A DNA stretch of 64,000 bases from Lachnoclostridium sp. Marseille-P6806 (GTDB taxonomy: Bacteria > Bacillota > Clostridia > Lachnospirales > Lachnospiraceae): the NCBI RefSeq assembly GCF_900625025.1, contig NZ_LR130585.1, positions 1 through 64,000 of the forward strand, written 5' to 3'. The notes below the pieces were generated by a model. That model was not told where the DNA came from. It did no database searches and saw nothing but the letters and a program-made list of their open reading frames with translations. Each line of letters begins with the position of its first letter. The stretch's first letter is position 1. A program made the translations under genes and the position numbers. This document shows, one piece after another, positions 3,189 to 60,180 of the stretch.

Positions 3189-3257
3189 CGCCGGCGCGCC
3201 TGCGCGGATTTTGCGCCGCGTGCCTCGCAAAAAAACGCTTCGGCATTGGGGGTATTT
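3189..3257 (+). repeat. Copy of the start-codon-adjacent leader repeat (copy 1)
   Basis: The stretch carries TGCGCG..GCGCCGCG, then GCGTGCCTCGC, then ACGCTTCGGCATTGGGGG, ending 7 bases before the ATG of the GH43 gene. The same ordered blocks occur before the starts at 12120, 27453 and 60181. The last part supplies the purine-rich ribosome site of the downstream gene. Confidence 0.65.
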
Positions 3258-4676
3258 ATGAAAAACAGGAAGCAGGTTGTGAATCCGTATCTTCCGTCGT
3301 GGGAACATATCCCGGACGGCGAACCGTATGTGTTCGGGGACCGCGTCTATGTGTACGGCTCGCACGACAAATTCGGCGGCGAGCTCTACTGCATGCTGGA
3401 CTATGTCTGCTGGTCGGCGCCCGCGGACGATCTGGCCGACTGGCGCTGCGAGGGCGTCATCTACCGGAAAGATCAGGACCCGGGAAACGGCGACCTGCAG
3501 GGGAATCTCTATGCCCCGGCCGTCACGGTCGGGCCGGACGGGAGATATTATCTGTATTATGTGCTCAGCAGCTGGGGCGTGGTATCGGTTGCGGTCTGCG
3601 ACAGTCCGGCCGGCGCGTACCGCTTCCTCGGCTACGTCCATTATAAGGATGGAACGCGTCTGGGAGAGCGGCCCGGCGATGAGCCGCAGTTTGACCCGGC
3701 GGTGCTCACGGAGGGGGACAGAACCTATCTGTACACGGGCTTTTCGGCGGTCGGGGATACGTCGAGGCACGGCGCGATGGCGACGGTGCTCGGGCCGGAT
3801 ATGCTGACGGTGGAGGAGGACCCGGTGTTTGTTGCGCCGAGCGAGTCGTACAGCGAGGGGACGGGCTTTGAGGGACATGCGTTTTTTGAGGGCCCGTCGA
3901 TACGGAAGAAAGGCGAGGAATATTTCTTTATCTATTCGTCGCAGCTCTATCATGAGCTGGCCTACGCCACAAGCCGCAACCCGGTCGGAGGGTTCCGCTA
4001 CCGGGGCGTGCTGGTCAGCAACGGCGACCTTGGCATCGACAGCTACAAGCCCGCCGGGAAGCCGATGTGCTACTGCGCGAACAACCACGGGAGCATGGTG
4101 CGGATCGGGGACGACTGGTACATTTTCTACCACCGTCATACGAACGGCACCAATTACAGCCGGCAGGGCTGCTTTGAGAAGCTGACGGAGAGGGAGGACG
4201 GAGGCTTTGCGCAGGCGGAAATCACATCCTGCGCCGGGGCGGCGCCTCTGCGCGGCGAGGGAGAATACCCGGCCTATCTGGCCTGTCACCTCTTCTCGGA
4301 GCTGGATGTGACCTATATTCCGTGGTCAGGCTGGATGGACGACCGCTTCCAGAAGATCACGCAGGAGGAGACGGACAGCGGCGAAAGCGTCAGCTATATC
4401 GCCAACATGCGCCCGGGAACCTCCGCGGGCTTCAAGTATTTTGACTGCCGCGGCGTGAAAATGGTCGCGGTCAGCACGAGAGGCTATGCCTCCGGTGTTC
4501 TCGAGGTTCGCACGGCGTGGGACGGCGAGCCCATAGCCGGGATTCCGGTCGGCTATGCCAACGTGTGGAAAACGACGTCGGCGCCGTGCCGGATTCCCGA
4601 CGGGGTGCAGGCTCTCTATTTCACATTCCGCGGAGAGGGACATCTTCAGTTCCGTTCGTTTACGCTCGTCCGGTAA
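3258..4676 (+). CDS. Glycoside hydrolase family 43 protein (arabinosidase/xylosidase type)
   Basis: A 472-residue cytoplasmic enzyme with no signal peptide. The ATG at 3258 follows a GGGGGT ribosome site; a TTG at 3246 is possible but less likely. Residues ~8-300 form the five-bladed GH43 propeller. Candidate catalytic acids are D20 (PDGEPYVFGD), D146 (PQFDPAVL, the FDP motif) and E211 (FFEGPSIR), so the triad of general base, pKa modulator and acid is intact. Residues ~330-472 form a C-terminal beta domain like those attached to other GH43 enzymes. GH43 enzymes release L-arabinose or D-xylose from oligosaccharides; the exact linkage cannot be read here. Its 3' end overlaps the convergent gene by 31 bp. 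The nearby importer and GH51 enzyme suggest arabino-oligosaccharides. Confidence 0.85.
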   Translation: MKNRKQVVNPYLPSWEHIPDGEPYVFGDRVYVYGSHDKFGGELYCMLDYVCWSAPADDLADWRCEGVIYRKDQDPGNGDLQGNLYAPAVTVGPDGRYYLYYVLSSWGVVSVAVCDSPAGAYRFLGYVHYKDGTRLGERPGDEPQFDPAVLTEGDRTYLYTGFSAVGDTSRHGAMATVLGPDMLTVEEDPVFVAPSESYSEGTGFEGHAFFEGPSIRKKGEEYFFIYSSQLYHELAYATSRNPVGGFRYRGVLVSNGDLGIDSYKPAGKPMCYCANNHGSMVRIGDDWYIFYHRHTNGTNYSRQGCFEKLTEREDGGFAQAEITSCAGAAPLRGEGEYPAYLACHLFSELDVTYIPWSGWMDDRFQKITQEETDSGESVSYIANMRPGTSAGFKYFDCRGVKMVAVSTRGYASGVLEVRTAWDGEPIAGIPVGYANVWKTTSAPCRIPDGVQALYFTFRGEGHLQFRSFTLVR

Positions 4677-6850
4677 ATGCGGTTCCGGCGCTGCCGCTCC
4701 GGGAGGCTTTGCGCCTCGGCCTCGTCGATCTCATAGACGCCGAAGAGATCGTACAGTCCGGCGGTGGGCTCGGCCTCCACAAAGGTGCACCACGGGAGCC
4801 AGTGATAATGACTGTTCACGGTCTGCGTCCAGAAGCCGGAGGCCTCGTGGCCGAGGGCGGGCATGGCATAGCCGGTTTTTCCCCCGACATCCGTCGACTG
4901 CTTGGTGTTTTTGTGGAGAAAACGGGCAAAGTCCAGATAATGGCGGTCGCCGGTGCTCAGATAGAGGCGGTAGTAGCTGAGCGAGCACGCGGCCATGTAG
5001 CAGTCCGCGCCGCCTCCGAGGTAAATGATGCTCTGCCCGCTGATGGAATACTGATTGAACGGGTGCTTTTTCCATGGGGTCTTTACGGGGAAAGACCATA
5101 CATAGGTCCAGCTTTCCGTGTAGTCGGCGGCCTTTTGGGCGGCGTCCAGCCATTTCGCATCGCCGGTCAGATCATGGAGAGCCATCATTCCCCACATGGC
5201 GTAGATGCCGGCCTCCTTGTCCTGCACGTCGGCGTTGTCGCAGGTTCCTCCCCGGTATTCCAGCGCGGGGACGGCCTGCGTCAGCGTCCATTCGCCGGCG
5301 CGCAGCGCCGCATCGCGCAGGGCTTCCTCGCCGGTCTCGAGAAAGAGCTCAATGAGGAAGCGTATGATGGCCGGCGTATTGGCCCGGGAGCTCATCCGCA
5401 CGGAGCTGTCGGGATAATAGGCGCGGAAATAGCTGCCGTCCGGGTTCTGGAGCCGGACGAGACGGCGGCCGGTCTTCTCGCAGAAGCGGAGCCACGCCTC
5501 CTTTACCGTGCCGTGCTCCTTGAGGAGGCGATAGGCCCGCAGGATCGCCTCCATGCCGTCCGCGAGCATGCGGATATAGACCGGATAGGGCTCAAAGCCG
5601 GACATGGACGGGTTATAGCACAGCGGCGGCAGACCGGACTCCGTGTCGGCGGCGCGCGTCCAGAAATCGAGGATATCCGTTCCGGCCCGCAGGAAATCCT
5701 CCCGCTTCTCCAGAAGGCCGTAGCGCAGGCACAGACCGCCGATCGCCGGCTGCTGGCCGACAAAGCCGAACTGGAAAGAAACGGAATTGATATCCATATC
5801 CGGGAGCTGCGCGGCGAAAGGGAGGCCGACGGAGCCGTCCGCAAAGCGCTCCGTGTAGCGGAGAAAAATATCCATGCAGTCCCGAAAATGCTGCTCTGCG
5901 CTGACCGCAAAGAGCGGCGCGCGCATCCTGTCGTAGACGCTCCGCCAGCTTTCGCGCAGGAAGCCATAGTAGGAGCTGTGGTATTCCGGCGAGACGGCGA
6001 TCGAGTACTCCTGCGCAAAGCCGGGGGTCACCGGATGGTAGAGGCGGCTGAAGCCCATGGGCCGGTTGTGAAAATCGAGCCCCGCGTAGGCGCCTGCATA
6101 GAGAAACTGTCCGTCGCTTCCCGGGTAGACGTAATCGAGAGAAAGACCTCTTTTCTGTGCGGGAGCCGGGTGTGAGACCTCGTAGCCGTAGTAGGTGTAG
6201 TTGAGCGTCCGGCCCGGCCGGCGGCTGACGCCGAGGCCGCCGATGGTCAGCAGCGGATCGGTGCTGTTTTCCGACAGATTCTGTTCCAGATTCCGCAGGG
6301 TGATATCCGGCGCCCAGCGGGAAAAGACGAGGCTTTCGCCGCTGTCCGGGTTCCGCACGCCAAAGAGCGGGAGCGCGCAGTGCGTCTCCATGAACCAGAT
6401 GAAATCCATGTCCGGCGAGCTGCCGATGGCCTGCGCCGGAGCGAAGCGGTTGTGCAGATAGTAGCAGCCGGGGGCGAAGCCCTCGATGTCCTCCATGCTC
6501 TTTGCCCCGCAGAGAACGAGGCTGAACAGGGAGGCGAAGCCCTTTTCCGTGCCGGCCTCCTCCACGGCGACGCGGCGGCGGAGCCGGATGTCGGTGCCGG
6601 AGAGCAGGTAGTCGTCCCGGAAGCAGAAGCGGCTCCCGCCGGGCGTGGACAGTGAGCCCTCGCAGCGCACGCCGTCGGAAAGCGCCGAGACGCTCTCGTA
6701 GATTCCGTCGCAGAACTCATTGGAGACGGCCTGTGTTTTGAGCTGGAGGGACAGCGGGGCCGGATTGGCGTAGAGCATGCGGTCCCCGCGGAAGACGGCG
6801 ATGCCGCCGTCCTCAAAGAAAAAACGATAGGAATGACAGAAAATATTCAT
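4646..6850 (-). CDS. Uncharacterised 734-residue protein, probable sugar-active six-hairpin fold
   Basis: The family is not recognised with confidence. The ATG at 6850 is preferred because TGAGGA lies 6 bases upstream; the in-frame ATG at 6862 would add four residues. There is no signal peptide, so it is cytoplasmic. Residues ~1-280 look beta-rich with many aromatic residues. Residues ~300-700 show repeated helix pairs rich in W, Y and G (for example YRGGTCDNADVQDKEAGIYA and GYAMPALGHEASGFW), the style of (alpha/alpha)6 barrels found in glycosidases, lyases and epimerases. It is divergent from a LacI regulator, has a clean promoter and a LacI-type operator in front, and converges on the GH43 gene. 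A role in the same oligosaccharide pathway is inferred. A profile search or structure prediction would settle the fold. Confidence 0.6.
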   Translation of the reverse strand: MNIFCHSYRFFFEDGGIAVFRGDRMLYANPAPLSLQLKTQAVSNEFCDGIYESVSALSDGVRCEGSLSTPGGSRFCFRDDYLLSGTDIRLRRRVAVEEAGTEKGFASLFSLVLCGAKSMEDIEGFAPGCYYLHNRFAPAQAIGSSPDMDFIWFMETHCALPLFGVRNPDSGESLVFSRWAPDITLRNLEQNLSENSTDPLLTIGGLGVSRRPGRTLNYTYYGYEVSHPAPAQKRGLSLDYVYPGSDGQFLYAGAYAGLDFHNRPMGFSRLYHPVTPGFAQEYSIAVSPEYHSSYYGFLRESWRSVYDRMRAPLFAVSAEQHFRDCMDIFLRYTERFADGSVGLPFAAQLPDMDINSVSFQFGFVGQQPAIGGLCLRYGLLEKREDFLRAGTDILDFWTRAADTESGLPPLCYNPSMSGFEPYPVYIRMLADGMEAILRAYRLLKEHGTVKEAWLRFCEKTGRRLVRLQNPDGSYFRAYYPDSSVRMSSRANTPAIIRFLIELFLETGEEALRDAALRAGEWTLTQAVPALEYRGGTCDNADVQDKEAGIYAMWGMMALHDLTGDAKWLDAAQKAADYTESWTYVWSFPVKTPWKKHPFNQYSISGQSIIYLGGGADCYMAACSLSYYRLYLSTGDRHYLDFARFLHKNTKQSTDVGGKTGYAMPALGHEASGFWTQTVNSHYHWLPWCTFVEAEPTAGLYDLFGVYEIDEAEAQSLPERQRRNRIYRTSVNERN

Positions 6851-6880
6851 AAGAATCCTCATTCCGAAGCACTTTGCGGC
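6851..6880 (-). repeat. Partial leader repeat before the start at 6850 (copy 7, minus strand)
   Basis: Read on the minus strand it is GCAAAGTGCTTCGGAATGAG followed by GATTCTT and the ATG at 6850. This matches the right end of the leader repeat seen before the starts at 17003 and 27453, including the position of the ribosome site. Confidence 0.55.
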
Positions 6881-6890
6881 GCGCAGAACA

Positions 6891-6936
6891 GTTAAACGTT
6901 ATATGAAATTATAAGAAATCCGGAGAGAAAAGACAA
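6891..6936 (-). promoter_or_regulatory. Promoter and LacI-type operator for the gene at 4646-6850
   Basis: On the minus strand TTGTCT (6931-6936) and TATAAT (6908-6913) are separated by exactly 17 bp. Immediately downstream lies the operator-like sequence containing GTTAAACGTTA (plus-strand 6891-6901). The same 11-mer stands before the importer operon at 8118-8128. A centre of CG flanked by A/T half sites is typical of LacI-family operators. Position after the -10 box suggests repression. Confidence 0.65.
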
Positions 6937-6958
6937 TTCCGGATATGGGAGAGGCTGG

Positions 6959-8027
6959 ATGGTCACACTCAAGGAAATTGCGGAAATATGCGGCGTTTCA
7001 GCGACGACGGTGTCCAATATCCTGAACGGAAAATGCAAAGCGAGCGAGGAGACGCGGCAGAGAGTGCTCGCCGTCGTCGGAGAGCAGGGCTATCGCCCCA
7101 ATTATGTGGCGCAGGGACTGCGGCGGCAGAAGACGCACACCGTTTCCATCATCGCGGAGGACATTGCGCAGTTCACTTCGCCCCCCCATCATCGAGAGCA
7201 TCATGGAATACTGCGAGGCGCAGGGCTACCGGGTGACCGTGCACAATCTCCGCCTTTATGCGAGGTGGGCGGACACATGGTACAACCAGGAGGAGGCGTA
7301 TCACTCGATACTTGATCCGGTGCTGAGCGATATTCTGTCGGCGAGGGCGGACGGCGCGATCTATATTGCGGGACACGCCCGCGTCATTCACTGTTTTGAC
7401 GAAAATTTCCCGATTCCGGCGGTCATGGCCTATGCACGGTCGGGCGCGGCGGGGATTCCCTCGGTCGTCATCGACGATGTGCGGAGCGCGCGCGAGGTGG
7501 TGGATTGTCTTCTGGGAATGGGGCACCGCAGAATCGGCTTTATCGGCGGACGAAAGGACAATCTTCACACGCAGCTCCGTCTTCAGGGCTACCGCGAGGC
7601 GCTCGAGGGAAAGGGGATTCCCTTTGATCCGGAGCTTGTCTATTACGGAGACTGGAGCCGGGGCTCAGGCTGTCAGGGCGCGCGGACGCTGTCGGAAAAG
7701 GGCGTCGGAGTCTTTTTCAGCATTTCGGATCAGATGGCCGGAGGCATATACGATTATGCGGACGAGGCGGGAAAGGAGATTGGAAAGGATATCTCGGTGG
7801 GCAGCTTTGACAATCAGGAAATTGCGCAGTTTTTCAGACCGGGGCTTACGACGACGGCGCTGCCGCTTACGGAAATCGGCAGGGAGTCGGCAAAAATTCT
7901 GATCGGAAGAATCGAGTGGCAGAGGCAGAAAACGGGGCCGTCGGGGGAGAGAAAGCTAGTGGAGATCCCTTGTACGATGGTGCGGCGAAGCTCCATAGCT
8001 GATGCAAGATGCACAAAAACGGGATGA
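6959..8027 (+). pseudogene. LacI-family regulator interrupted by a one-base frameshift in a C7 run
   Basis: The first frame (6959 to ~7187) encodes a LacI helix-turn-helix (TLKEIAEICGVSATTVSNIL, hinge NYVAQGLRRQ). The second frame (~7188-8027) encodes the periplasmic-binding-protein-like sugar domain up to a normal C-terminus. The frames join at seven consecutive C residues (7181-7187); removing one C restores SPPIIESIMEY and a full protein of about 355 residues. Beyond the C7 run the first frame continues as unrelated sequence to 7315. It is divergent from the 734-residue protein and upstream of the importer operon, both with matching operators. It may be a sequencing error, a recent mutation or a phase-variable switch. 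Confidence 0.8.
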
Positions 8028-8075
8028 AAAATTCTACTGATATCTACAAAGTTGAATGATAAAGAGCAAAAGCTG

Positions 8076-8131
8076 TTGACAGCGGACGGGCAAAAGGGGA
8101 AAATATTAGCATCATAGGTTAAACGTTAAAC
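8076..8131 (+). promoter_or_regulatory. Operator and probable promoter of the first importer operon
   Basis: GTTAAACGTTA (8118-8128) with flanks forms an imperfect palindrome centred on CG and is identical to the 11-mer at 6891-6901. Upstream, TTGACA (8076-8081) is a good -35 box, but no -10 box lies at the ideal distance; AATATT or TATTAG (8102-8109) are the best candidates. The operator is well supported by its repetition, the promoter less so. Confidence 0.55.
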
Positions 8132-8154
8132 AAAAACAAAGGAGGCTTTGCTCC

Positions 8155-9066: not shown

Positions 9067-9080
9067 GTCGGAGGTGGCGT

Positions 9081-10007: not shown

Positions 10008-10070
10008 CGGGCAGTTCGCTTAGTGCAGCGGCCTCTATACTGCATTTTTCTGCGGCGGCAGGCAACGTCG

Positions 10071-11957: not shown

Positions 11958-12026
11958 CAGGAAAAATAAAACCGCCTGCGCGGACCTTTCAGCAAACGAA
12001 AAATGCTGTCAGGTAAAGGGACGGCA

Positions 12027-12119
12027 CGAGCCGCTTTGCGGCTCGGCACCTTGTGCGCCGGCGCAGGGTGCTTTGCGTCGCGTGCCTCGCTGGGAAACGC
12101 TTCGGCATGGGGGAACAGT
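12027..12119 (+). repeat. Copy of the start-codon-adjacent leader repeat (copy 2)
   Basis: It holds an 8-bp perfect hairpin (12027-12034 with 12038-12045), then TGCGCCGGCGCAGGGTGCTT, then CGCGTGCCTCGC, then ACGCTTCGGCATGGGGG, ending at the ATG of the GH51 gene. The left part (GGGACGGCACGAG) resembles the block GGGACGGCATGAG in the longer copies at 27210 and 44901. No separate promoter is evident between the terminator at 11957 and this element. Confidence 0.65.
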
Positions 12120-13622
12120 ATGAAACTATATATCAATGAGAATCACAGACAGGGACATATCCGGCCGGAGATATACGGGCATTTCTCCGAGCATCTGGGG
12201 AGATGTATTTATGAGGGCATCTTCGTGGGAGAGGATTCAGAGATTCCGAACGTGAACGGCATGCGCCGGGATGTGGTGGAGGCGCTGCGGGAGATATGGA
12301 TTCCGGTGCTGCGCTGGCCGGGCGGCTGCTTTGCGGATGAGTACCACTGGCGGGACGGCATCGGCCCGAAAGAGAGCCGCAAGCGGATGATCAACACGCA
12401 CTGGGGCGGCGTCGTCGAGGACAACAGCTTCGGCACGCATGAATTTTTTGAGCTGTGCCGGCAGCTCGGCTGCAAGAGCTACGTGAACGGCAATGTCGGC
12501 TCGGGCACCGTGCAGGAGATGAGCGAGTGGGTCGAGTATATGAGCTTCGACGGCGTATCGCCGATGGCGGAGCTGCGCCGGAAAAACGGGCAGGATGCCG
12601 CGTGGTGCGTCGATTATTTCGGCGTCGGCAATGAGAACTGGGGCTGTGGCGGCAATATGACGGCGGCGCAGTATGCGCAGGAATATCGGCGCTATCAGAC
12701 CTATGTTCGCAATTACGACAGGAACGCGCCGATTTTCAAGATCTGCGGCGGAGCGAATGCGGATGATTACGAGTGGACGCGGACGGTGATGGAGGAGTGC
12801 TTCCGGAGCCCGGCGCCGGAGGAGGCGCACGGCTATATGGACGGCTATTCGGTTCATTACTATGTCGGCGTTGAGAAAGGGGAGCACAAGGGGAGCGCGA
12901 CGGAGTTCGACGAGAACGTCTGGTATGAGACGATGAAGCGCGCGTTCGGGATGGAGGAGCTGATTTCACGCCACGGCGCGATTATGGATCAGTACGATCC
13001 GGAGCGCCGCGTCGGCATGATGGTAGACGAGTGGGGCTGCTGGCATGATGTGGAGCCGGGCACCAATCCGGGCTTCCTGTATCAGCAGAATACCATGCGG
13101 GACGCGGTGGTCGCGGGCCTTACGCTGAACATCTTCAACCGGCGCTGCGACAGAGTCCGGATGGCCTGCATCGCACAGGCGGTCAATGTGCTGCAGTCTG
13201 TTCTCCTGACGGACGGGCCGAGGATGGTGAAGACGCCCACATGGTACGTCTTCCATATGTATCGCTTTCATCAGGACGCGGATCTGGTGTACAGCTGGCT
13301 CTCCGGAGCAGAGGAGACGGGCCTCGGGGAAAACCGCGTGCCGGGCATTGTGGAGTCCGTATCGGCGGACGCGCAGGGTATCATTACGGCGACGCTCAGC
13401 AATCTGTCCCTTGACAGGGATGAGGAGCTGGAAATCGTGCTCACGGAGAAGCGTCCGCAGTCGGTGCAGATCACGCGGCTTTCGGGAGCGATGAATGCGT
13501 ACAACAGCTTTGAGGAGCCGGAGAAGCTGAAAGAAGAGGAGATCCGGGAATATGAGCTGACGGAGCGGGGAGTGAGACTGACGATTCCCGCGTGCAGCGT
13601 CACCACGGTGCGGATCGCGTAG
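12120..13622 (+). CDS. Alpha-L-arabinofuranosidase, GH51
   Basis: A 500-residue intracellular enzyme that releases terminal L-arabinofuranose from arabinan or arabinoxylan oligosaccharides. The ATG at 12120 follows GGGGGAAC; the frame stays open upstream through the leader repeat, but that part is repeat-derived. The acid/base is E172 (GVGNENWG) and the nucleophile E304 (VDEWGCWH), with the expected 132-residue spacing. [19 protein letters not shown] is the usual GH51 strand. The C-terminal ~100 residues form the beta sandwich. No signal peptide. It follows the importer operon and probably acts on its cargo. Confidence 0.93.
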
Positions 13623-16973: not shown

Positions 16974-17002
16974 CACAAGGTGCTTCGGCATGGAGGATTG
17001 TT
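16974..17002 (+). repeat. Partial leader repeat before gpx (copy 5)
   Basis: CACAAGGTGCTTCGGCATGG followed by AGGATTGTT and ATG. Only the right end of the repeat is present. It supplies the GGAGG ribosome site of the gpx gene. Confidence 0.6.
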
Positions 17003-17548
17003 ATGGCAGGCTTTTATGATTATTCCGTATCGGACAGCAAGGGCGGCGAGGTCTCTCTGGAGCGGTACCGCGGCAAGGTGGTCATGGTGGTGAACACCGC
17101 GACGGGCTGCGGCTTCACCCCGCAGTACAAGGACATCGAGGAGATGTACGAGCGTTTTCACGAGCAGGGCTTCGAGGTGCTCGATATCCCCTGCAATCAG
17201 TTTGCAGGGCAGACGCCCGGAACGGATGAGGAGATCCACGAGTTCTGCACGCTGAAATATCACACGCAGTTCCCGCAGATGAAAAAGAGCGATGTGAACG
17301 GCGAGACGGCGCTTCCTCTGTACGGCTTTCTCAAGAGCCGGCAGGGCTTTCAGGGCTTCGGCAAGGGCGCGCAGGCTCTCATGATGAGCGCCATGCTCAA
17401 CAAGATCGACAAGGATTACAGGAACAATCCGGAGATCAAATGGAACTTCACGAAGTTCATTATCGACCGGGACGGGAACGTCGCGGCGCGCTTTGAGCCG
17501 ACGGCGGACATGGCGGAGGTTTCGGCCTTTGTGGAGAAGCTCCTGTAA
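17003..17548 (+). CDS. Glutathione-peroxidase-family peroxidase (cysteine type)
   Basis: 181 residues. The peroxidatic residue is C36 in NTATGCGFTPQY, coded by TGC, so it is not a selenoprotein. Q70 (CNQFAGQ) and W147/N148 (KWNFTKF) complete the family's catalytic tetrad. Bacterial enzymes of this type usually use thioredoxin rather than glutathione, which fits the thioredoxin reductase two genes downstream. It reduces hydrogen peroxide and organic peroxides in the cytoplasm. The start at 17003 has GGAGGATTGTT upstream. It is first in the operon 17003-18991. Confidence 0.92.
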   Translation: MAGFYDYSVSDSKGGEVSLERYRGKVVMVVNTATGCGFTPQYKDIEEMYERFHEQGFEVLDIPCNQFAGQTPGTDEEIHEFCTLKYHTQFPQMKKSDVNGETALPLYGFLKSRQGFQGFGKGAQALMMSAMLNKIDKDYRNNPEIKWNFTKFIIDRDGNVAARFEPTADMAEVSAFVEKLL

Positions 17549-27190: not shown

Positions 27191-27209
27191 TCGCCGGGAG
27201 GGAGGAATA

Positions 27210-27452
27210 GTGTGAAAAATCACGCGGATGCGCTGAGTTGCTCCGTGAGCGAAACGTGCTGTTACGTAGTGGGACGGCATGAGACGCGAAGCGGGTCGAC
27301 ACTCTACGCGTCGGCGCAGAGATTTTTCACACAGCTATTTGTGCCGAAGCCCAAATAGCTTCTGATCGCAGCCGTAAAACCGCCTGCGCGCCGGCGCAGG
27401 GTGCTTTTACGGCGCGTGCCTCGCACAAAGTGCTTCGGCATGGTGATTTTTT
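27210..27452 (+). repeat. Long leader-repeat element inside the second importer operon (copy 3)
   Basis: Four structures lie in order. GTGTGAAAAATC (27210-27221) and GATTTTTCACAC (27321-27332) form a 12-bp terminal inverted repeat around a ~100-bp core. Next is AGCTATTTG/CAAATAGCT (27333-27360). Next is a long hairpin GCCGTAAAA...TTTTACGGC with inner CCTGCGC-GCCG-GCGCAGG (27371-27413). Last is the shared right end GTGCCTCGCACAAAGTGCTT plus CGGCATGG, abutting the ATG at 27453. The first 85 bases match 44901 onward with three differences. It looks like a small palindromic insertion between two permease genes. Confidence 0.75.
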
Positions 27453-28313
27453 ATGAAACAGAAAATCAAAAAGGGAAACAGAACACCGCGGGAACGGAGG
27501 AGGAATTTCCTGCTCTGTCTGGGTGCGGTTCTTATTGCGGTCGTTTTTCTGTTTCCGCTCTACTGGCTGATCTCCATGTCTTTCAAGACGGACGCGGAGT
27601 CTTTCGGTAAAATCGTGACATATTATCCGCACAGCTTCACACTTTATCCGTGGAGAACGAACTTTTCGGATCATGAGTTTCTGTCGTCGCTGAAAAACAG
27701 CTTCGTCATCGCGCTCCTGTCGATGCTCCTGTCCATAGGCTTCGGTGTTCCCTGCGCCTACGGCATGGGGCGCTACCGCGTTCCCGGCGGGAGGGGCTTC
27801 ATGTTGGCCTTTCTGGTGTCGCAGATGCTCCCGGCGTCGCTGATGCTGACGCCCATGTATCTTATTTTCAACAAGCTTCACCTTCTGGGAAGCTATCTGG
27901 GGCCGGCGATTGCGATTTCATCGGGCTCGGTGCCGTTTATCGTCGTCACGCTGCGGCCGTATTTCAAGAGCATACCGACCTCGCTGGACGACGCCGCCCG
28001 TATCGACGGCTGTACCGTGCTGCAGTCCTTTGTGCAGATCATGATTCCCGCGATCAAGACGGGGATCATCACGGTGCTGGTGATCTCCTTTCTGGGAGGC
28101 TGGAATGATCTGGCCTACTCCATGACCTTTAACGTGCAGGCCGACATGCGGCCGCTGACGGCGAATATTTACAAATTTCAGAGCAAGTACGGAACCAAAT
28201 GGAACTGCATCATGGCCTACGGGACGATACTGGTTCTGCCGGTTGTATGTATGTTTATTTTTCTGCAGCGCTATATCGTGGGCGGCATGACGGCCGGCGC
28301 GGTGAAGGAGTAG
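27453..28313 (+). CDS. Sugar ABC importer permease, UgpE/MalG type
   Basis: 286 residues with six predicted spans. EAA loop: LDDAARIDGCTVLQSFVQI; the C-terminus QRYIVGGMTAGAVKE is the family's hallmark end. It pairs with the permease at 26294. The ribosome site is only GGTGA from the repeat element, so translation may be weak or controlled by the leader structure. The GH31 gene follows 76 bases later. Confidence 0.9.
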   Translation: MKQKIKKGNRTPRERRRNFLLCLGAVLIAVVFLFPLYWLISMSFKTDAESFGKIVTYYPHSFTLYPWRTNFSDHEFLSSLKNSFVIALLSMLLSIGFGVPCAYGMGRYRVPGGRGFMLAFLVSQMLPASLMLTPMYLIFNKLHLLGSYLGPAIAISSGSVPFIVVTLRPYFKSIPTSLDDAARIDGCTVLQSFVQIMIPAIKTGIITVLVISFLGGWNDLAYSMTFNVQADMRPLTANIYKFQSKYGTKWNCIMAYGTILVLPVVCMFIFLQRYIVGGMTAGAVKE

Positions 28314-42763: not shown

Positions 42764-42766
42764 GGT

Positions 42767-44753: not shown

Positions 44754-44900
44754 ACGCACAGAGAGTTTTTTTGTCAGCTTTCAAAAAAGTGCAAGGGGGA
44801 GTCCGGGAAAATCCATAGAAACAGGCGAAACGCTTTGCTACGCTGTTCATGGTACAGGAGAAAACGCTTTTCAGAATCAAGTTCTCAAAATGAGAGGCCA

Positions 44901-45053
44901 GTGTGAAAAATCACGCGGATGCGCTGATTTGCTCCGTGAGCGAAACGTGCTGTTACGTAGCGGGACGGCGTGAGACGCGAAGCGGCGCGGCACATTACGC
45001 GTCTCGTACAGCCTCGTACAAAGTGCTTCGATAAGGAAGAAGGGAGAATTGTT
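44901..45053 (+). repeat. Long leader-repeat element before the third importer (copy 6)
   Basis: It begins with GTGTGAAAAATC (44901-44912). Its first 85 bases match those at 27210 with only three differences. It then shortens to ACGCGTC and ends with GTACAAAGTGCTTCGATAAGG and an AGGGAG ribosome site directly before the ATG at 45054. The right terminal inverted repeat seen at 27321-27332 is missing here. No other promoter for the importer is obvious. Confidence 0.75.
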
Positions 45054-46517
45054 ATGAAACGTAACATGCTGGCAGTGATACTCAGCTACGTGTGTGCGGC
45101 GGCGCTGCTTTCCGGATGTGGCTCCGGAGGGGCGGCGAATGCGCCGGCGGGGGAGGCGGAAAGCGGCGCACCGCAAACGGAAGCCCCGGCGGAGAGCGCG
45201 GAGGAGGATGCGGAAGTCCCGGCAAAGGAAGGCGGAGCGGGGGAAAGCGCCCCGGCAGACGGCGTTGTGATCGAGGCGGTCGCAAATGAGGGACAGTTTG
45301 ACGGCGAGGAGCTCAGCATCCTCGTGTCGGCTGGCTGGATGGACAGCCGCTATGACGCCGTGATCGCGCGGTTTGAGGAAACGTATGGCGTGACGGTGGA
45401 TCTGCAGACGATTCCCGCCGACCAGTACAGCGATATTCTGCAGAGTGATCTGGCGAACGGAACCTGTCCGGATGTGTTCTGGATCCAGTCGAACCCCTTT
45501 GCCATCAGCTCGGTGATCGTGGATCCCGAGAATTACTGCATCGACTTCACAGGGGAGGCATGGGAGGCGGTCATGCCGAAAGCACGGCTCTCCTCCTGCA
45601 CCAGCGACGGGAAGCTTTACGGGCTGCAGATATGGCACAACTCTCCGGAGTATGTCATGCTGTACAATAAAACGCTGTTTGAGGAGCTGGGGATCAACAA
45701 AACGCCGTCCACCTATGAGGAGCTGAAAGCGGACTGCAAGATCATTGCGGAGGCAGGGATCACGCCGTGGTTCATGCCGGGGGCGGACGGCTGGCAGCAT
45801 CAGCTTGCGTTCTTCCAGATCGGAGGGAGCTATGAGGCGCAGCAGCCGGGGCTCTATGAGGCGCTGAACAGCAACAAGGCGGTCTTTGCGGGCAACGAGG
45901 GGATGCTGACGGTTCTGAAAGAATTCAAGGAACTCTCGGATCTTGGCTATTTCGGAGAAGACTGGATCGGCACGGATTCCACCAACATGTCCAACGAGTT
46001 CGGGGACAGGACCTGCGCGATGGCGATGGCAAACTCGAGCTATATCCAGCAGATCAAAGAGGACACGGGGACCGGCGACGAGTTCGGTCTGTTCCTGATT
46101 CCGCTGAACGACAACGACTGCTATCCGACCAATCCGGCGGGGCCTACGATGTTCGGATATAAGAGCACGCCGCACGAGGACCTGGTGAGAGCGTTCTTCA
46201 CGTTCCTCTGCACGCCGGAGAGCCTACAGGAAATTCTGGACAATTCGCCCGGCTATACGAATCTCGATGTCAATACCGTGATTGAGCAGCACTGGCTTCC
46301 GGAAGAGGAGGAGTTTATGGCGTCGGTCGACAAGGCGAAGATGGAGACGCCTGTTCTGCAGACGGGAACAAAGTATACTAATGATTACTGGATGAATTTC
46401 GGCGCTGACATGGTGGCCTATTGTCAGGGGACGATGGAAGCGGATGAGGTGCTGTCCAACATGGATGCGCGCCGTGCAGAAGCGGCGGCGACGGCGGACG
46501 ATCCCGCGTGGAAGTGA
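45054..46517 (+). CDS. Sugar-binding lipoprotein of the third importer
   Basis: 487 residues. Lipobox LSGC (C22) closes the signal peptide; a Gly/Ala/Glu-rich linker runs to about residue 75. A family 1 solute-binding fold follows (LSILVSAGWMDSRYDAVIAR, then PDVFWIQSNPF). The start at 45054 has AAGGGAGAATTGTT upstream, from the repeat element. It is divergent from the kinase-GH95-regulator operon, which probably controls it. No stem-loop separates it from the permease gene 29 bases later. Confidence 0.9.
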   Translation: MKRNMLAVILSYVCAAALLSGCGSGGAANAPAGEAESGAPQTEAPAESAEEDAEVPAKEGGAGESAPADGVVIEAVANEGQFDGEELSILVSAGWMDSRYDAVIARFEETYGVTVDLQTIPADQYSDILQSDLANGTCPDVFWIQSNPFAISSVIVDPENYCIDFTGEAWEAVMPKARLSSCTSDGKLYGLQIWHNSPEYVMLYNKTLFEELGINKTPSTYEELKADCKIIAEAGITPWFMPGADGWQHQLAFFQIGGSYEAQQPGLYEALNSNKAVFAGNEGMLTVLKEFKELSDLGYFGEDWIGTDSTNMSNEFGDRTCAMAMANSSYIQQIKEDTGTGDEFGLFLIPLNDNDCYPTNPAGPTMFGYKSTPHEDLVRAFFTFLCTPESLQEILDNSPGYTNLDVNTVIEQHWLPEEEEFMASVDKAKMETPVLQTGTKYTNDYWMNFGADMVAYCQGTMEADEVLSNMDARRAEAAATADDPAWK

Positions 46518-53709: not shown

Positions 53710-53741
53710 TTAAGAAATGACGGATATGGAGAGCATGTTTT

Positions 53742-53836: not shown

Positions 53837-53901
53837 AAAAGCAAAATGACAAACAGAGAGATGCTTTTCAGGTGGCAGTGAAATTTCATAAGGAGGAGAA
53901 A

Positions 53902-55239: not shown

Positions 55240-55255
55240 GGCATATCGGAGCAGG

Positions 55256-55278
55256 GCCGCGGCATCAAGGGCCGCGGC
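55256..55278 (+). promoter_or_regulatory. Stem-loop between binding protein and permeases
   Basis: Two copies of the self-complementary 8-mer GCCGCGGC (55256-55263 and 55271-55278) can pair into one stem. No T run follows, so it is not a terminator; it may protect the 3' end of the binding-protein mRNA. Confidence 0.5.
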
Positions 55279-55350
55279 TCTGCCCGAAGAACAGGAATAA
55301 AAGGGTCACAGCAGCAGGCAGGAAAGAAAAATGCCGGATGGCGGAAAATA

Positions 55351-56238
55351 ATGAAAACGAGAAAAATAAATACATATCATCAGAAAAAAGCATATCTGTT
55401 TATTCTTCCGGCCATGGCAGTCCTGACGGTCTTTGTATTCATTCCGCTGATCAGCGCTTTTGTTCTGAGCTTCCTGCGCATTGACATATATATGAATGAT
55501 ATAGGCTTTGCGGGAATTGAAAACTATGCCAGACTGTTTCAGGACGGGCGGATCTGGAATGCGGCGAAAAACACACTGCTGTTTTCCGCGCTGGAAATTC
55601 CGCTGCAACTGCTTCTTGCCCTTTTTCTGGTCATGCTGATGCTGGGAAACAGACGCCTTGACAAGTTGCTCCGCGCGACATTTTATCTTCCGTACGTCTG
55701 CTCCATGACGGCGATCAGTATTATCTGGTCCATGCTTCTCAATGCCAATTCCAGCGTCTTATCCTATGTACTGCGCCGTTTTGGCATGGCGATGCCGAAT
55801 CTTCTGAACAGTGTGACAGGGGCGCTGCCGACGGTTGCGCTGATTACCGTTTGGAAAAATTTCGGCTATACCGTGACGCTCCTGTCCGCGGCGGCGCTGG
55901 ATATCCCGGCGGCCTTGTATGAAGCGGCAGAGCTGGACGGCGCGTCAAATTTCCAGAAGTTCATCTATGTGACAGTTCCCTCGATCCGCAGAACGATCAG
56001 CTTCTGCTTCGTGACCATTCTCATTGCGGCATTTCAGGCCTTTGACCAGATTTATGTCATGACCGGAGGCGGTCCGTTAAACAGTACGGAAACGCTGGTC
56101 ACCTATATCTATGACCGAGGATTTCAGACAACGCATGATCTGGGCTATGCTTCTTCCATATCCGTCGTGTTATTTGTTCTGATTGCACTTGTGACATTTG
56201 GCTTTAGAAAGCAGACGCTGGGGGAAGCAGAGGAATGA
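55351..56238 (+). CDS. Sugar ABC importer permease, UgpA/MalF type
   Basis: 295 residues with six predicted spans; EAA loop LYEAAELDGASNFQKFIYV, later TGGGPLNSTETLVTYIYDRG. The ribosome site (GGCGGAAAA) is weak. Its stop overlaps the next start by four bases, so the two permeases are translationally coupled. Confidence 0.9.
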   Translation: MKTRKINTYHQKKAYLFILPAMAVLTVFVFIPLISAFVLSFLRIDIYMNDIGFAGIENYARLFQDGRIWNAAKNTLLFSALEIPLQLLLALFLVMLMLGNRRLDKLLRATFYLPYVCSMTAISIIWSMLLNANSSVLSYVLRRFGMAMPNLLNSVTGALPTVALITVWKNFGYTVTLLSAAALDIPAALYEAAELDGASNFQKFIYVTVPSIRRTISFCFVTILIAAFQAFDQIYVMTGGGPLNSTETLVTYIYDRGFQTTHDLGYASSISVVLFVLIALVTFGFRKQTLGEAEE

Positions 56239-57071
56239 AAGTCCGAAAGAGAAAGCGGCAGGCGGGAAAGGCAGCCGGCGATATTCTTCTTTTACTGATT
56301 GCGCTGATCGTGCTGTTCCCGATTTTATGGATGTTGGTTTCTTCGTTCAAAACGGATGCGGATGTGATCCGCTGGCCTCCGTCCTTTTTTCCGCGGAGCT
56401 GGGTGAGCGATCAGTACCGGTATGTATTTTCGATACTGCCCGTGCTGAATATGCTTAAAAATACAGTGCTGTTTGCCGGGAGCGTCACGGTCATCAGTCT
56501 TCTGATTGACTCTCTGGCAGCGTACGCCTTTGCGCGGCTGCGATTCAAGGGAAAAGATATTATTTTCGGAATGATCCTGATCACGATGATGGTTCCGTTT
56601 CAGGTCATTATGATTCCGCTCTATATAGAAGAGTATAAGCTGGGCATATTGAATTCCTTTGCCGGTCTGATACTTCCGAGGATTGCGAGCGCTTATGGGA
56701 TATATCTTCTGGCCTCCTTTTTCGGAGGGATCCCCAAATCACTCGAAGAGGCTGCAAGAATTGACGGGATGGGGGAACTCGGAATTTACGGAAAAATCAT
56801 AGCGCCGCTCTCAAGGCCGGCCTTTATCAGCCTGGGAATCTTTCATTTCATGAACAATTGGAACGATCTTCTGTATCCGATGATGCTCACAAGCTCTGTG
56901 GAGATGAGAACACTCTCGGCAGGTCTTGCGATTCTCGTCGGCAATCATTCGATCAAATATGGCCCGACACTGGCGGCCACGGTGGTATCTGTCGCGCCGC
57001 TGATGATTCTGTTTCTGTTCGGACAGAGATTTTTCATGGAGGGAATTGCGACAACCGGGGTAAAAGAGTAA
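56235..57071 (+). CDS. Sugar ABC importer permease, UgpE/MalG type
   Basis: 278 residues with six predicted spans; EAA loop LEEAARIDGMGELGIYGKI and end GQRFFMEGIATTGVKE. It completes the fourth importer; no ATPase gene is present. The GH51 gene follows after 80 bases in which AAAGGAG and a small AGCCT/AGGCT hairpin are seen. Confidence 0.9.
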   Translation: MKVRKRKRQAGKAAGDILLLLIALIVLFPILWMLVSSFKTDADVIRWPPSFFPRSWVSDQYRYVFSILPVLNMLKNTVLFAGSVTVISLLIDSLAAYAFARLRFKGKDIIFGMILITMMVPFQVIMIPLYIEEYKLGILNSFAGLILPRIASAYGIYLLASFFGGIPKSLEEAARIDGMGELGIYGKIIAPLSRPAFISLGIFHFMNNWNDLLYPMMLTSSVEMRTLSAGLAILVGNHSIKYGPTLAATVVSVAPLMILFLFGQRFFMEGIATTGVKE

Positions 57072-57151
57072 AGGCGTACCGATAAAATTAAAAATCCTGC
57101 CCGCTGGGGGCGGAGTGCAGAAAGGAGTCAGCCTCAGGCTGAACAGCGAAT

Positions 57152-58681
57152 ATGATGCAAAGTGCCAGAATCAAGGTGAACCGGAGCTTTCAGAAAGGCG
57201 AGATCAGCCCTTATATTTACGGGTCGTTTGTAGAGCATATGGGGCGGGTCGTCTACTCGGGAATTTATGAACCGGATCACCCTTGTTCTGATGAAGACGG
57301 TTTTCGTGGGGATGTGCTCGAAAAAATCAAAGGCATGGGAGTTACCTGTGTGCGGTATCCGGGCGGCAATTTTGTCTCCACATATGACTGGAGGGATGGC
57401 GTAGGACCTAAGGAAAATCGTCCGCGTAAGCGGACATTGGCCTGGAAATCCATTGAAACGAATGAATTCGGAACAGACGAATTCATGAAATGGGCCGGCA
57501 AGGCGGGAGTCATGCCTGTCTTTGCGGTGAATCTCGGAACCAAGGGGATTGAAAACGCGCTGTCCTTTCTGGAATACTGTAATTTGCCGGCGGGAACGTT
57601 TTACAGTGATATGCGTGCCGGCAACGGACATGCGGCGCCGTATGAAATACCGGTCTGGTGCCTCGGAAACGAGATGGACGGGGACTGGCAGATCGGTCAT
57701 AAAACGGCGGAGGAATATGGAAAGCTGGCGGCGCAGACGGCGCATGCCATGAAAGCGCTGGATGCGGATCTGCAGCTCGTTGTCTGCGGAAGCTCATCCG
57801 CGTCGATGGCCAGCTATACGGATTGGGAGCGCATTGTTCTGGAGGAAGCCTACGATTATGTGGACTATATTGCGCTTCATCAGTACTTTGGAGGGCAGGA
57901 AGCGGGGACGGCGGCATTCCTCGCGCAGGCGGCGGATTTTGACCGCTACATTCACACGGTAGAGGGCATCTGCGACACGGTCAGGAGCAAAAAGAGATCC
58001 CGGAAGCAGATTAACATCAGCATAGACGAATGGGGCGTATGGGAGATCCGGGGCACCGAGGTGGAAAAGGATGTAAATTCCAGGGACTGGGAAATTGCGC
58101 CGGCATTCAGCGAGCAGATCTATACGATGGAGGATACGCTTCTCTTTGCCAGTATGCTCATGACGATGCTCAGGCACTGTGACCGGGTGAAATTCGCATG
58201 TCAGTCTCTGCTTACCAATATCAGCGCCTGCATTATGACGGAAAAAGGCGGAGGCTGCTGGGTGCAGCCGATCTATTATCCGTTTGCCCTTATGTCTGAA
58301 TTCGGCCGGGGCTCGGTGCTGGAATGTGTGGAGGATATTGCCGGTTATGATTATCATGGCATGCGCATTCCGTATATTGATGCTCTTTGCGTGCACAATA
58401 CGGAAAAGAACGAGCTTGTATTTTTTATTCTGAGCAGAAACGGTGAGGATATTCCCTTTGAGGCGGAGCTGCAGGATTTTCATGTGACAGGCATAGAGGA
58501 TGCCGTCGTCCTGCAGGCAGAGGATATCAAGACCACGAATGCAGCAGATCACGAAGTCATCGCGCCGAGAAGCATGCCGGAGAGGTTTTCGCTGGACGGT
58601 CATTTATCCGGCAAGACATTGCTCCGCGGAACGATAGAGGGATATTCGTGGAACATGCTTCGCGTACGCGTGGAAGCATAA
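57152..58681 (+). CDS. Alpha-L-arabinofuranosidase, GH51 (second copy)
   Basis: 509 residues, no signal peptide. Acid/base E174 (WCLGNEMDGDW) and nucleophile E293 (SIDEWGVW) are intact; YPGGNFVSTYDWRDGVGP is the family strand. It differs clearly from the GH51 at 12120 (motif GNEMDG instead of GNENWG, and length), so it belongs to another subgroup and probably prefers other linkages. ATG at 57152 or 57155; the site AAAGGAG lies about 30 bases upstream behind a small hairpin. Last gene of the LacI-controlled operon. Confidence 0.92.
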   Translation: MMQSARIKVNRSFQKGEISPYIYGSFVEHMGRVVYSGIYEPDHPCSDEDGFRGDVLEKIKGMGVTCVRYPGGNFVSTYDWRDGVGPKENRPRKRTLAWKSIETNEFGTDEFMKWAGKAGVMPVFAVNLGTKGIENALSFLEYCNLPAGTFYSDMRAGNGHAAPYEIPVWCLGNEMDGDWQIGHKTAEEYGKLAAQTAHAMKALDADLQLVVCGSSSASMASYTDWERIVLEEAYDYVDYIALHQYFGGQEAGTAAFLAQAADFDRYIHTVEGICDTVRSKKRSRKQINISIDEWGVWEIRGTEVEKDVNSRDWEIAPAFSEQIYTMEDTLLFASMLMTMLRHCDRVKFACQSLLTNISACIMTEKGGGCWVQPIYYPFALMSEFGRGSVLECVEDIAGYDYHGMRIPYIDALCVHNTEKNELVFFILSRNGEDIPFEAELQDFHVTGIEDAVVLQAEDIKTTNAADHEVIAPRSMPERFSLDGHLSGKTLLRGTIEGYSWNMLRVRVEA

Positions 58682-58729
58682 TTGCGGTTCCGGGGGACAT
58701 CGATCCGTATGGAGTCATAACCGGAGTTG

Positions 58730-58863
58730 ACGTTTTTTCCTTGCAGCCGTCACGGCAGTCGTCGGAGCCGGCGCGCTCAGACTTTTCATAGCCGGGCAGG
58801 TCTTTGAGAGCATCCTGAATGTCCTTGGCAGTCTCGATGCCATATTCCTGCAGGAGTCCCCAA
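58730..58863 (-). pseudogene. Remnant of an IS256-family transposase
   Basis: On the minus strand this stretch reads LLQEYGIETAKDIQDALKDL joined to GYEKSERAGSDDCRDGCKEK. These match from memory two N-terminal pieces of IS256-type transposases (EALKDLL... and LGYEKSER...NGYK.K) with the ~25 residues between them deleted. No catalytic DDE part is present, so it is a dead fragment. Confidence 0.6.
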
Positions 58864-58896
58864 GGGAACCGAACATTATAATAACCTGGTATTTGT

Positions 58897-59514
58897 TTAA
58901 TCAAATAATGTTGGCAAATCGAAATGATAAAATGATTCAAAACACATTCGTATTTGCTCTTTTGTACTTTTTTCTTTCGCAAGATTATCTGGCAGATCAT
59001 CTTTGCCAAAAAGAGCAATCTCTGTTGTTTCTACATTTTGCTTAAATTTGCCGCTCTTATACTTGCACAAGAAAAAAACTTTTACAACTCCGTAAGCATA
59101 ATTTGTAATATTATGCTTACGCCAATCTTGAACCGCAATCAGTTTTTCCGCCGATACAATTAATCCCGTTTCTTCTCTGACTTCCTTTTCCGTATTGGAT
59201 GCAATGGACTGGTCAACATCACACCAACCGCCCGGCAATGCCCAGGTACCATTATTTTCATGAACAAGTAGAATTTTATCATCAAGGAATATGGCGGCTC
59301 TTGTATCCACTTTCGGAGTTTGATAACCTGATTCATTACAAAATAAATTGTAGACTTTGTCTGTTGGAATATCCGTTCTTTCCGAAATCATTTCAGCGGC
59401 AATTTTTCTTAGTTCCTCATACCGCTCTTTATCATATATGTCCTTTCCATATTGGAGTCCTGCTTGTGCAATACTTTGGATACGAATTGCAAAATTTATT
59501 ATTTTATCATTCAT
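58897..59514 (-). CDS. NUDIX hydrolase with N-terminal accessory domain
   Basis: 205 residues from the ATG at 59514; earlier in-frame residues do not look like this family. Residues ~1-60 resemble the helical N-terminal domain of NUDIX enzymes acting on nucleoside diphosphates linked to other groups. The NUDIX box (from GGWCDVDQ to REETGLIV) is present with the REVREETG-type core, but the position usually holding the first Glu is Gln. The gene is distinctly AT-rich compared with its neighbours, a sign of transfer. It stands alone between two gene remnants. A weak GAGAAA precedes the start. Confidence 0.82.
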   Translation of the reverse strand: MNDKIINFAIRIQSIAQAGLQYGKDIYDKERYEELRKIAAEMISERTDIPTDKVYNLFCNESGYQTPKVDTRAAIFLDDKILLVHENNGTWALPGGWCDVDQSIASNTEKEVREETGLIVSAEKLIAVQDWRKHNITNYAYGVVKVFFLCKYKSGKFKQNVETTEIALFGKDDLPDNLAKEKSTKEQIRMCFESFYHFDLPTLFD

Positions 59515-59785
59515 AGCTGTTTTCTCATTTTCGCTGCTGAAGCAGCCGCGGGCGAGGATGAAGCCCGCCTGCAGGTACCCGTGTCCCTTCGCTTTCATCA
59601 TCATCAAACTTGTATTTCGGGTACATCTTTTCAGGGTCATCAGGGACCTGTTTCTCTTTATAAGAATGCCTTATGCAGCTGGTGAATGCAACAAAAAGGC
59701 ATTATTTTCTAAAGAAAATCAACATTTTTGAACTTGCGAATTACTTCTTTGAGGATCGGGAGTTAATTAATTTCCGGGAACTCAG
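59515..59785. other. AT-rich gap with no supported gene
   Basis: The minus strand holds an open stretch ending near 59530 that reads DPEKMYPKYKFDDDESEG and then becomes Arg/Pro-rich; it may be the tail of a lost gene but is not recognised. No promoter or terminator is evident. Confidence 0.3.
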
Positions 59786-59878
59786 GATGATTTAACTCCT
59801 GCATTAGAGCAGGGATTCGTTGAAATGACTATCCCGAACAAGCCGAATAGTCGGAACCGGCAATACAGAAGAAAGTGA
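59786..59878 (+). pseudogene. C-terminal remnant of a helicase-related ATP-binding/AlbA-type protein
   Basis: A 30-codon tail (PALEQGFVEMTIPNKPNSRN, then RQYRRK and stop) resembles, from memory, the C-terminus of bacterial AlbA_2/RecG-like ATP-binding regulators, which commonly end in EMTIPDKPxSRxQKYRLT. No upstream coding sequence in frame remains. After it, up to 60101, nothing further is recognised. Confidence 0.5.
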
Positions 59879-60101
59879 CTTGGCTGGTTATCGGCCAGGA
59901 AAAATGATTAAGATATCGGCCAAGTTAATCTGCTTTGTGACGATCGATCTGTTTGCTTTCCGTGCTTTCCTTTCTGTACTTTTGCCCCACATATATATCG
60001 AAAAACAATAAAAATATATTGAATTACGTTTGTTCCTGTGTTATGCTCCTCCTGTGAAACGGCCGACCCGGAAAACGGAATCCTGTGATTCTGTCTCTTC
60101 G

Positions 60102-60180
60102 GGCATACGGTACGCTGCGCGTCGGCGCAGCGTGCTTGCGGCATGTGCCTCGCTGGGGGCGTTTCGGAATGGTGATTTTT
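60102..60180 (+). repeat. Copy of the start-codon-adjacent leader repeat (copy 4)
   Basis: A perfect 9-bp hairpin ACGCTGCGC-GTCG-GCGCAGCGT (60112-60133), then CATGTGCCTCGC, then GCGTTTCGGAATGGTGATTTTT, directly before the ATG at 60181. Relative to the copy at 27371 the stem bases differ but pairing is kept. Confidence 0.7.

Follow-up and report, generated by a model that had tools for sequence, protein, structure and literature searches.

The first 64,000 nucleotides of contig NZ_LR130585.1 of Lachnoclostridium sp. Marseille-P6806 (assembly GCF_900625025.1; this whole stretch is referred to as the window) contain seven copies of a hairpin-built repeated element, each located directly before the start codon of a gene. 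A repeat abutting these seven gene starts had been described in the first-pass annotation of this DNA, and all seven cases stand. Six copies match the right-end core of the element, AAAGTGCTTCGGCATGG, with up to three mismatches (100 shuffles gave a mean of 0.24 matches and 2 at most). The seventh, before position 60181, is more diverged, and was recognized by eye and by a weak match (19.1 bits, E 0.0016) to the covariance model R2. This model was built from 65 copies, 24 of them from the host genome itself (G000), 37 from 17 genomes of the same genus, and four from a genome of another family (G043). The copies in the window, with their parts, are as follows (SD, Shine-Dalgarno sequence).

27196-27209, plus strand: host SD-like left flank GGGAGGGAGGAATA, directly 5' of the element (from the sequence)
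27210-27443, plus strand: essentially complete element before the permease gene at 27453 (R2 match 27284-27455, 96.5 bits; both ends from the sequence)
27210-27332, plus strand: hairpin 1, with 5' arm GTGTGAAAAATCACGC at 27210-27225 and 3' arm at 27314-27332, enlarged by a hairpin-rich module of about 87 nucleotides (nt)
27333-27360, plus strand: hairpin 2, with loop GCCGAAGC complementary to GCTTCGGC in the right end
27371-27413, plus strand: hairpin 3 in an enlarged form, containing the CCTGCGC-GCCG-GCGCAGG stem pointed out in the first-pass annotation
27414-27443, plus strand: hairpin 4 and right end GCGTGCCTCGCACAAAGTGCTTCGGCATGG (core match; fold of the sister copy L010)
27442-27448, plus strand: element-borne SD, GGTGATT, for the ATG at 27453 (from the sequence)
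44901-45036, plus strand: element before the solute-binding protein gene at 45054 (R2, 39.8 bits; left end at 44901)
45020-45036, plus strand: degenerate right end AAAGTGCTTCGATAAGG of that element (core match)
3197-3248, plus strand: right-hand part before the GH43 gene at 3258 (core match; R2, 33.7 bits)
11968-12110, plus strand: element lacking hairpins 1 and 2, before the arabinofuranosidase gene at 12120 (core match; R2, 30.4 bits)
16977-16993, plus strand: core-only right end before the glutathione peroxidase gene at 17003 (core match; no R2 match)
6859-6875, minus strand: core-only right end before the gene at 6850, which has a weak GH127 match (core match; no R2 match)
60112-60180, plus strand: diverged right-hand part before the DUF2975 gene at 60181, with a remnant of hairpin 3, the right end and the SD (R2, 19.1 bits)

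Four of these copies had been taken to be full. This is correct for the one before 27453, but no other copy is essentially complete. The copy before 45054 has both ends with a degenerate middle and right end, those before 3258, 12120 and 60181 are right-hand parts, and those before 17003 and 6850 consist of the core alone. The genes had also been called unrelated, and they do belong to seven different Pfam families (the one at 6850 only through its weak GH127 match); two of the seven are parts of ABC transporters and three are arabinan-type glycosidases.

The basic form of the element is about 136 nt long from its left end to GGCATGG, and about 145 nt with the SD included. It is organized as hairpins 1, 2 and 3, a small hairpin 4, and the right end with its SD (GGAGGATT or GGTGATT). 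Longer forms, of about 222 and about 308 nt, contain one or two of the 87-nt modules, inserted in hairpin 1 or hairpin 3. The module is a second-level repeat with its own hairpins; together with the left end it makes up a 104-nt direct repeat in the window (27209-27312 and 44900-45003, 92% identical), and a similar module lies within hairpin 3 elsewhere. Short forms of 34-71 nt resemble internal deletions, and many copies are partial.

The host genome (3,125,999 bases in 38 contigs, 96.7% complete, 57% G+C) contains 93 matches to the right-end core with up to two mismatches, compared to a single match for the reversed pattern. The left end GTGTGAAAAATCACGC has 74 matches (none when reversed), GGCGCGTGCCTCGCAC has 84 (5 when reversed), and GCTTCGGCATGG, with up to one mismatch, has 234 (24 when reversed). 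A right end is found within 360 nt of the left end in 59 of the 74 left-end matches, and the lengths between the two ends cluster at 121-140, 153-155, 184, 220-234 and 307-308 nt. Among the 15 left-end matches that have no right end, at least two (L031 and L073) resemble chance matches.

The placement seen in the window is maintained throughout the genome. The ATG of an open reading frame (ORF) of at least 60 codons lies within 25 nt after the core in 76 of the 93 copies (18.5% for random positions in the same loci), and at exactly +8 or +9 in 58 of them (1.7% for random positions). An ORF start on the other strand, past the opposite end of the core, is found in only 6 of the 93 (random, 10.6%), so that the orientation follows the gene, as had been noted for the seven window copies. 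The 17 copies without such an ATG were inspected by eye; five run into a further copy of the element, and four have GTG or TTG at +8.

In the host sequence flanking the 74 left ends, positions -9 to -4 are rich in purines (65 of 74 at -8), T is found at -2 in 56 and A at -1 in 57, and the composition is near random from -12 outward. This flank is an SD-like tract. Intact copies are therefore located between the host SD-like tract and the start codon, and they add a second SD, mostly at a distance of 8-9 nt from the start codon. At its own left end, the element usually resembles the start of a gene, with the pattern NN-NTG-AAA.

The copies in the host genome are closely related to each other. 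Among 46 of them, the best pair, from different loci, is 99.1% identical over 221 nt, and the median of 336 pairs is 85%. Tandem copies are also present, with the right end of one joined to the left end of the next.

Three genes that carry the element in the host genome were compared by eye with those of relatives in the same genus, over the 70 to 100 nt before their starts. These were a hydrogenase small-subunit-like gene (8 relative places, proteins 71-92% identical, with 13 further rows being distant homologues at 44-47%), ylxR (29 places, 49-73%) and glgD (24 places, 68-92%); the names ylxR, glgD and, below, pyrB were read from translations. In the relatives the SD and the start codon are mostly adjacent to each other, and the element is mostly absent. 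At one site, the empty form GAGGAGAGAAGAT-ATG corresponds to the filled form GGAGAGAAAAGAGAGTTA-[element]-CCT-ATG. The left junction at glgD coincides with the beginning of the start codon in one relative (L242, by eye). A scan of 61 relative loci with R2 found two matches, one of which (L237) lies behind glgD rather than before it, while the other is a weak match directly before glgD (L250, positions 1441-1504, E 0.021). At the glgC-glgD junction of L233, the upstream glgC apparently takes its stop codon from the GTGTGA of the element, with an altered C-terminus as a result (by eye).

The element is also found in other genomes. A covariance model made from the 24 full own copies (R1, with up to 49 candidates scored per genome) detected it in 25 of 61 genomes, comprising 24 of the 37 of the genus (including the host genome) and G043. 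With R2 it was found in at least 33 of 392 genomes of the order, and in at least 22 of 174 genera; up to seven candidates were scored per genome, so these counts are floors, and they include the training genomes G000 and G043. The R2 matches are in the same family and in one other (f8), with weak matches alone in two more, two of them in a third (f5) and some in a fourth (f1). A repeat restricted to this species was considered, as the exact core has only 0-8 matches per relative (control, 0-2), and was rejected since the covariance model finds the family widely. Sequences of the element are alike within one genome and different between species.

The layout of SD, element, SD and start recurs in the majority of the 74 copies taken from other genomes. 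For this comparison, copies were drawn from among the best-scoring places, 24 of them own copies, 41 from the relatives surveyed first and 33 from the order-level survey. A 20-nt interval at the right end contains the start of an ATG ORF of at least 60 codons in 20, 25 and 26 of these, respectively (random, 13-17%), and an SD-like 4-mer is present in the left flank of 18, 31 and 30 (random, 18-22%). Because the covariance model itself spans 9 nt of the left flank together with the region of the SD and ATG, the comparison depends on it in part. There are also divergent subtypes in two genomes, L293, L294 and L307 in G031 and L297 and L298 in G015, with left ends GATAGA, GAAGGA, ATATTC and ATTCAG, and with different right ends. 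Some of these carry, at the right end, a repeat of a short sequence that lies immediately 5' of the element.

Searches of 72,556 plasmid records with two element queries were negative, as were searches of viral contigs with two exact patterns. In phage records, one query had no match and the other had three partial matches (about 40%) in unverified gut contigs. These three (MT836788.1, MT837007.1 and MT838414.1), labeled 'Bacteriophage sp.' and from human stool, contain about 54 nt resembling the left end with 84-85% identity, and are possibly bacterial DNA. A scan of contigs from named taxa produced 11 single matches in unrelated organisms, roughly as many as chance would give.

The stems of the element are preserved by compensatory changes, as the first-pass annotation had proposed. 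In the alignment of 65 copies, which was fitted to the structure beforehand, double changes are observed in 37 of the 40 base pairs and 96.2% of the cells are paired; shifting the partner by 1-3 columns lowers the pairing to 33-51%. The own-genome alignment alone has double changes in 13 of the 40 pairs, with 96.6% of the cells paired. The loop of hairpin 2 is in addition complementary to the right end. The longest perfect complement has a mean of 7.5 nt in 76 copies, compared to 5.4 nt with swapped right ends (the largest of 200 trials being 5.9) and 3.8 nt with shuffled loops, while it is 5 nt or shorter in 14 of the 76. This complementarity is kept in the variants of different species, GCCGAAGC with GCTTCGGC, CCGGAGCG with CGCTCCGG, GTCGAAGCGC with GCGCTTCGAC, and GCCTGAGC with GCTCAGGC. 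Therefore, the conserved GCTTCGGC is best read as the pairing partner of the hairpin-2 loop, rather than as part of the UUCG hairpin (GTGC-TTCG-GCAT) suggested earlier. Only 59 of the 94 core copies (one place being counted twice) have all four pairs of the latter intact, a C.A mismatch occupies the second pair in 18, and there is no double compensatory change, so the UUCG hairpin was rejected as a conserved core. Hairpin 4 shares bases with the pairing between the loop and the right end, and two states are thus possible.

The cells that deviate from Watson-Crick pairing include 55 GU, 28 AC and 68 others. The excess of GU over AC leans mildly toward RNA but is not decisive against single-stranded DNA. 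With this modest excess, and with most relatives lacking the element at the three genes, the structure may be one that acts at the level of DNA. Predicted RNA folds of three copies have z scores of -6.7 to -7.5. In the minimum-energy folds of two copies with GGTGATT, the segment joining hairpins 2 and 3 masks the SD, but this idea was dropped as the segment is not conserved for such a role (by eye).

The element has a strong preference for one strand. The leading strand was assigned for three of the 38 contigs (C1, C2 and C4) from the GC skew of spaced 5-kb stretches. On these, among the matches listed, the merged element sites are 67:4 in favor of leading-strand sense, compared to 101:60 for ORFs of at least 150 codons (Fisher P 1.5e-7). 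The ratio is 68:4 with one dropped match restored and 72:5 with the GGCGCGTGCCTCGCAC matches added, again among the matches listed. For genes on the leading strand, the sense strand is the template for lagging-strand synthesis.

Taken together, these observations make it likely that the repeats are one family of non-autonomous mobile elements, built of hairpins, which target the junction between SD and start codon and whose ends rebuild this junction. Of the two alternatives offered by the first-pass annotation, that of a palindromic mobile element which brings its own translation start has good support from the dispersed copies and their near identity, and further from the empty sites in relatives, the host SD left behind, the new SD at the right end and the tandem copies. 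Neither random placement and orientation nor stems without compensatory changes, the two outcomes that it had named as contrary to the regulatory alternative, were found. Dispersed similar copies with empty sites in relatives are also what is seen for miniature inverted-repeat transposable elements. The element has hairpins at its ends, and no parent element bearing a transposase was seen, PF01797 being the family searched.

The target of insertion would be the SD/start junction itself (purine tract-TA/NN-ATG, with the slash at the insertion point). With NN-NTG-AAA at the left end and an SD at the right end, the joint of the two ends (SD/NN-NTG-AAA), as seen in the tandem copies, looks like this target. 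Insertion would then yield the host SD followed by the start of the element, and the SD of the element followed by the host start, so that both junctions are rebuilt. The gene would retain an SD at the normal distance and remain translated, and this may explain the tolerance of copies ahead of pyrB, ylxR, glgD and other genes. Entry is probably into the single-stranded lagging-strand template during replication, and the element would be mobilized in trans by an enzyme acting at the exposed junction.

Several observations weigh against this reading. A mobilizing enzyme was not found; Y1_Tnp (PF01797), the sole enzyme family searched, has no match in the host genome. There is no significant signal for a target-site duplication (left flank versus right end 5.83, compared to 5.66 when swapped, with a standard deviation of 0.12; 8.8% of shuffles reach this value). 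A recognizable start codon is missing from the expected place in 8 of the 93 own copies (L004, L013, L016, L035, L039, L047, L049 and L087). Among the 41 copies of the first relatives, 16 lack an ATG ORF in the test interval (12 when any start codon is counted) and 10 lack the SD-like 4-mer on the left. Copies without a left end mostly have no SD-like sequence at their left edge (by eye), so that decay, truncation or a second route of insertion is needed for many of them. Possible remnants of the element are present at 3 of the 24 glgD places, the R2 match in L250 and right-end-like repeats noticed by eye in L246 and L257; if these are decayed copies, some sites may be old or repeatedly hit. 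The evidence for movement is indirect, coming from sites compared across relatives. Finally, the strand bias could in part be due to selection, and the ORFs used for comparison were picked by length, which makes their count a crude one.

The other alternative of the first-pass annotation was a structured RNA that controls translation, which would make the element a cis-acting leader, riboswitch-like or bound by a protein, with a pseudoknot beside the SD that opens or closes on a signal across a regulon. The structure is indeed kept by strong covariation, the pairing of loop and right end lies next to the SD, and the low-energy folds, the GU excess and the sense orientation are all as expected for such an RNA. 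A regulatory RNA should, however, remain associated with particular genes or functions, and here the genes in the window have no single common function and the orthologs of the three sampled genes mostly lack the element. Moreover, many core-only copies are unable to form the pairing, and the similarity of copies within a genome but not between species is that of amplified elements. We regard this explanation of the family as unlikely; the folded element may or may not have an effect on regulation or ribosome loading. Even less can be said for a plain dispersed repeat that is held beside start codons solely by selection against other insertions. Intergenic repeats are usually located where they do the least damage, but purging alone would not be expected to produce the +8/+9 spacing, the host SD at the left edge, or a strand bias beyond that of the ORFs, and this explanation is very improbable.

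An element of the REP or IS200/IS605 type, mobilized by a Y1 (HUH) transposase that cleaves at the SD-like sequence, would account for the end hairpins, the absence of a duplication signal and the short adjoining site. It would also fit the bias of 67:4 among the matches listed (ORFs, 101:60), as the lagging-strand template is the reported substrate of IS200/IS605 elements (PMC6006769). The distribution of the transposase speaks against it. PF01797 is absent from the host genome at 96.7% completeness and from seven element-rich genomes of 98-100% completeness, and its frequency is the same, 11 of 23, in element-rich genomes and in genomes without a detected element. With no association over these 46 genomes, a Y1 enzyme was rejected as the mover, and such an element is improbable. 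The same is true of a leader peptide, in which the host SD would drive a frame of about 48 codons from the NTG-AAA of the left end, overlapping the start of the gene and coupling its translation. GTG, ATG or TTG is present at the left end of 20 of the 24 own copies, of at least 28 of the 41 first-relative copies and of 30 of the 33 order-level ones, and in 15, 17 and 12 of these, respectively, the frame continues across the element without a stop codon. However, since NTGA itself closes another frame, a comparison between frames has little force, and in several species the left end offers no start codon. Substitutions are distributed 468/441/521 over the three codon positions (79 pairs), without a clear coding constraint, and the coding leader was rejected on this nearly flat pattern. 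Two lesser ideas were also set aside. A bias of host second codons toward AAA (16 of 87, compared to 13 of 204 candidate starts) has a background that includes internal ATGs. A group II intron, suggested by the GTGTG start, was dropped because other species start with GAGTG, GTATG or GATTG; the accessible text of a group II intron paper (PMC2882425) contains nothing resembling the element.

No known family was named in the first-pass annotation, and the Rfam searches agree. Rfam 15 has no match to the element at the gathering score in the window or in five loci, and the overlaps seen in nine loci fall well short of their thresholds; AS-pc01, for example, reaches 31.5 of 79 bits, and FinP 27.1 of 45 bits. 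A literature search, with most subscription journals and bioRxiv preprints outside its coverage, found no description of the element. The comparisons that follow are drawn from the available portions of the papers cited. The nearest systems in placement are the Start-Associated Sequences (SAS, or ESAS) of Cluster K mycobacteriophages (PMC3203893) and the TAACTGA repeats of marine Beggiatoaceae (PMC4679880), and those nearest in make-up are BOX elements (PMC3049150) and REP/IS200 ends (PMC6006769).

SAS/ESAS are short SD-containing repeats a few bases before the starts of varied genes, in nearly one orientation throughout, and about half have an upstream extension with an inverted repeat (PMC3203893). 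In contrast to the element, they consist of 13 bp (GGGATAGGAGCCC) and 17-bp repeats with 11-19 copies per phage genome, and that account gives little support to hairpins and describes no host SD left behind in its available portion (PMC3203893). Their sequence differs from that of the element by eye, and phage records gave only the three partial gut-contig matches, so the element does not belong with SAS/ESAS. The TAACTGA repeats are likewise mostly found directly before start codons and mostly in a single orientation, but they are direct repeats of a heptamer with little SD character (PMC4679880). BOX, RUP and SPRITE of Streptococcus pneumoniae are modular (A, B and C boxes), folded, genome-wide repeats that were judged parasitic by the authors; an SD/start placement is not described in the portion available, and they were compared by description rather than by sequence (PMC3049150). 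IS200/IS605 ends and REP share the end hairpins and the targeting of the lagging-strand template, but they require the Y1/HUH transposase TnpA and have a tetranucleotide target rather than an SD (PMC6006769). The Rickettsia palindromic elements are mobile repeats compatible with the host gene as well, though nearly half are inside ORFs rather than before them (PMC10969869). The MRSC-65-2 motif is a structured multi-copy motif classed as mobile, but it has a single long stem with a UYCCGG repeat, is found in diverse phyla, and its placement relative to start codons is not described in the available text (PMC11109978).

We tentatively suggest, with somewhat less than even confidence, that the element represents a class of mobile elements that recognize the translation-initiation signal, in which the joined ends mimic the SD/start junction, entry is into single-stranded lagging-strand template at that signal, and the conserved hairpin-pseudoknot form is acted on by a mobility enzyme of an unrecognized kind. 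Dozens of genes in element-rich genomes would then start from ribosome-binding sites derived from the element. On the likely reading given above, the element would be tuned to land between SD and start codon, one of the places where expression is most easily disturbed, and to repair it on arrival, and could spread without silencing the genes that it hits. The translation-initiation regions of many genes would have been rewritten in at least 22 of the 174 sampled genera of a large bacterial order. The family would offer a test bed for SD-start signals as insertion targets and a reason to search for the mobility enzyme, as well as a warning for the annotation of gene starts and 5' untranslated regions.

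Two known RNA families were matched in the vicinity of copies. A group II intron domain (RF02001, 57.8 bits) is located near one copy in the host genome (L012, positions 732-912, minus strand), and a Clostridiales-1 RNA (RF01699, 113 bits) lies close downstream of an element in the same genus (L279, positions 1023-1190, minus strand).

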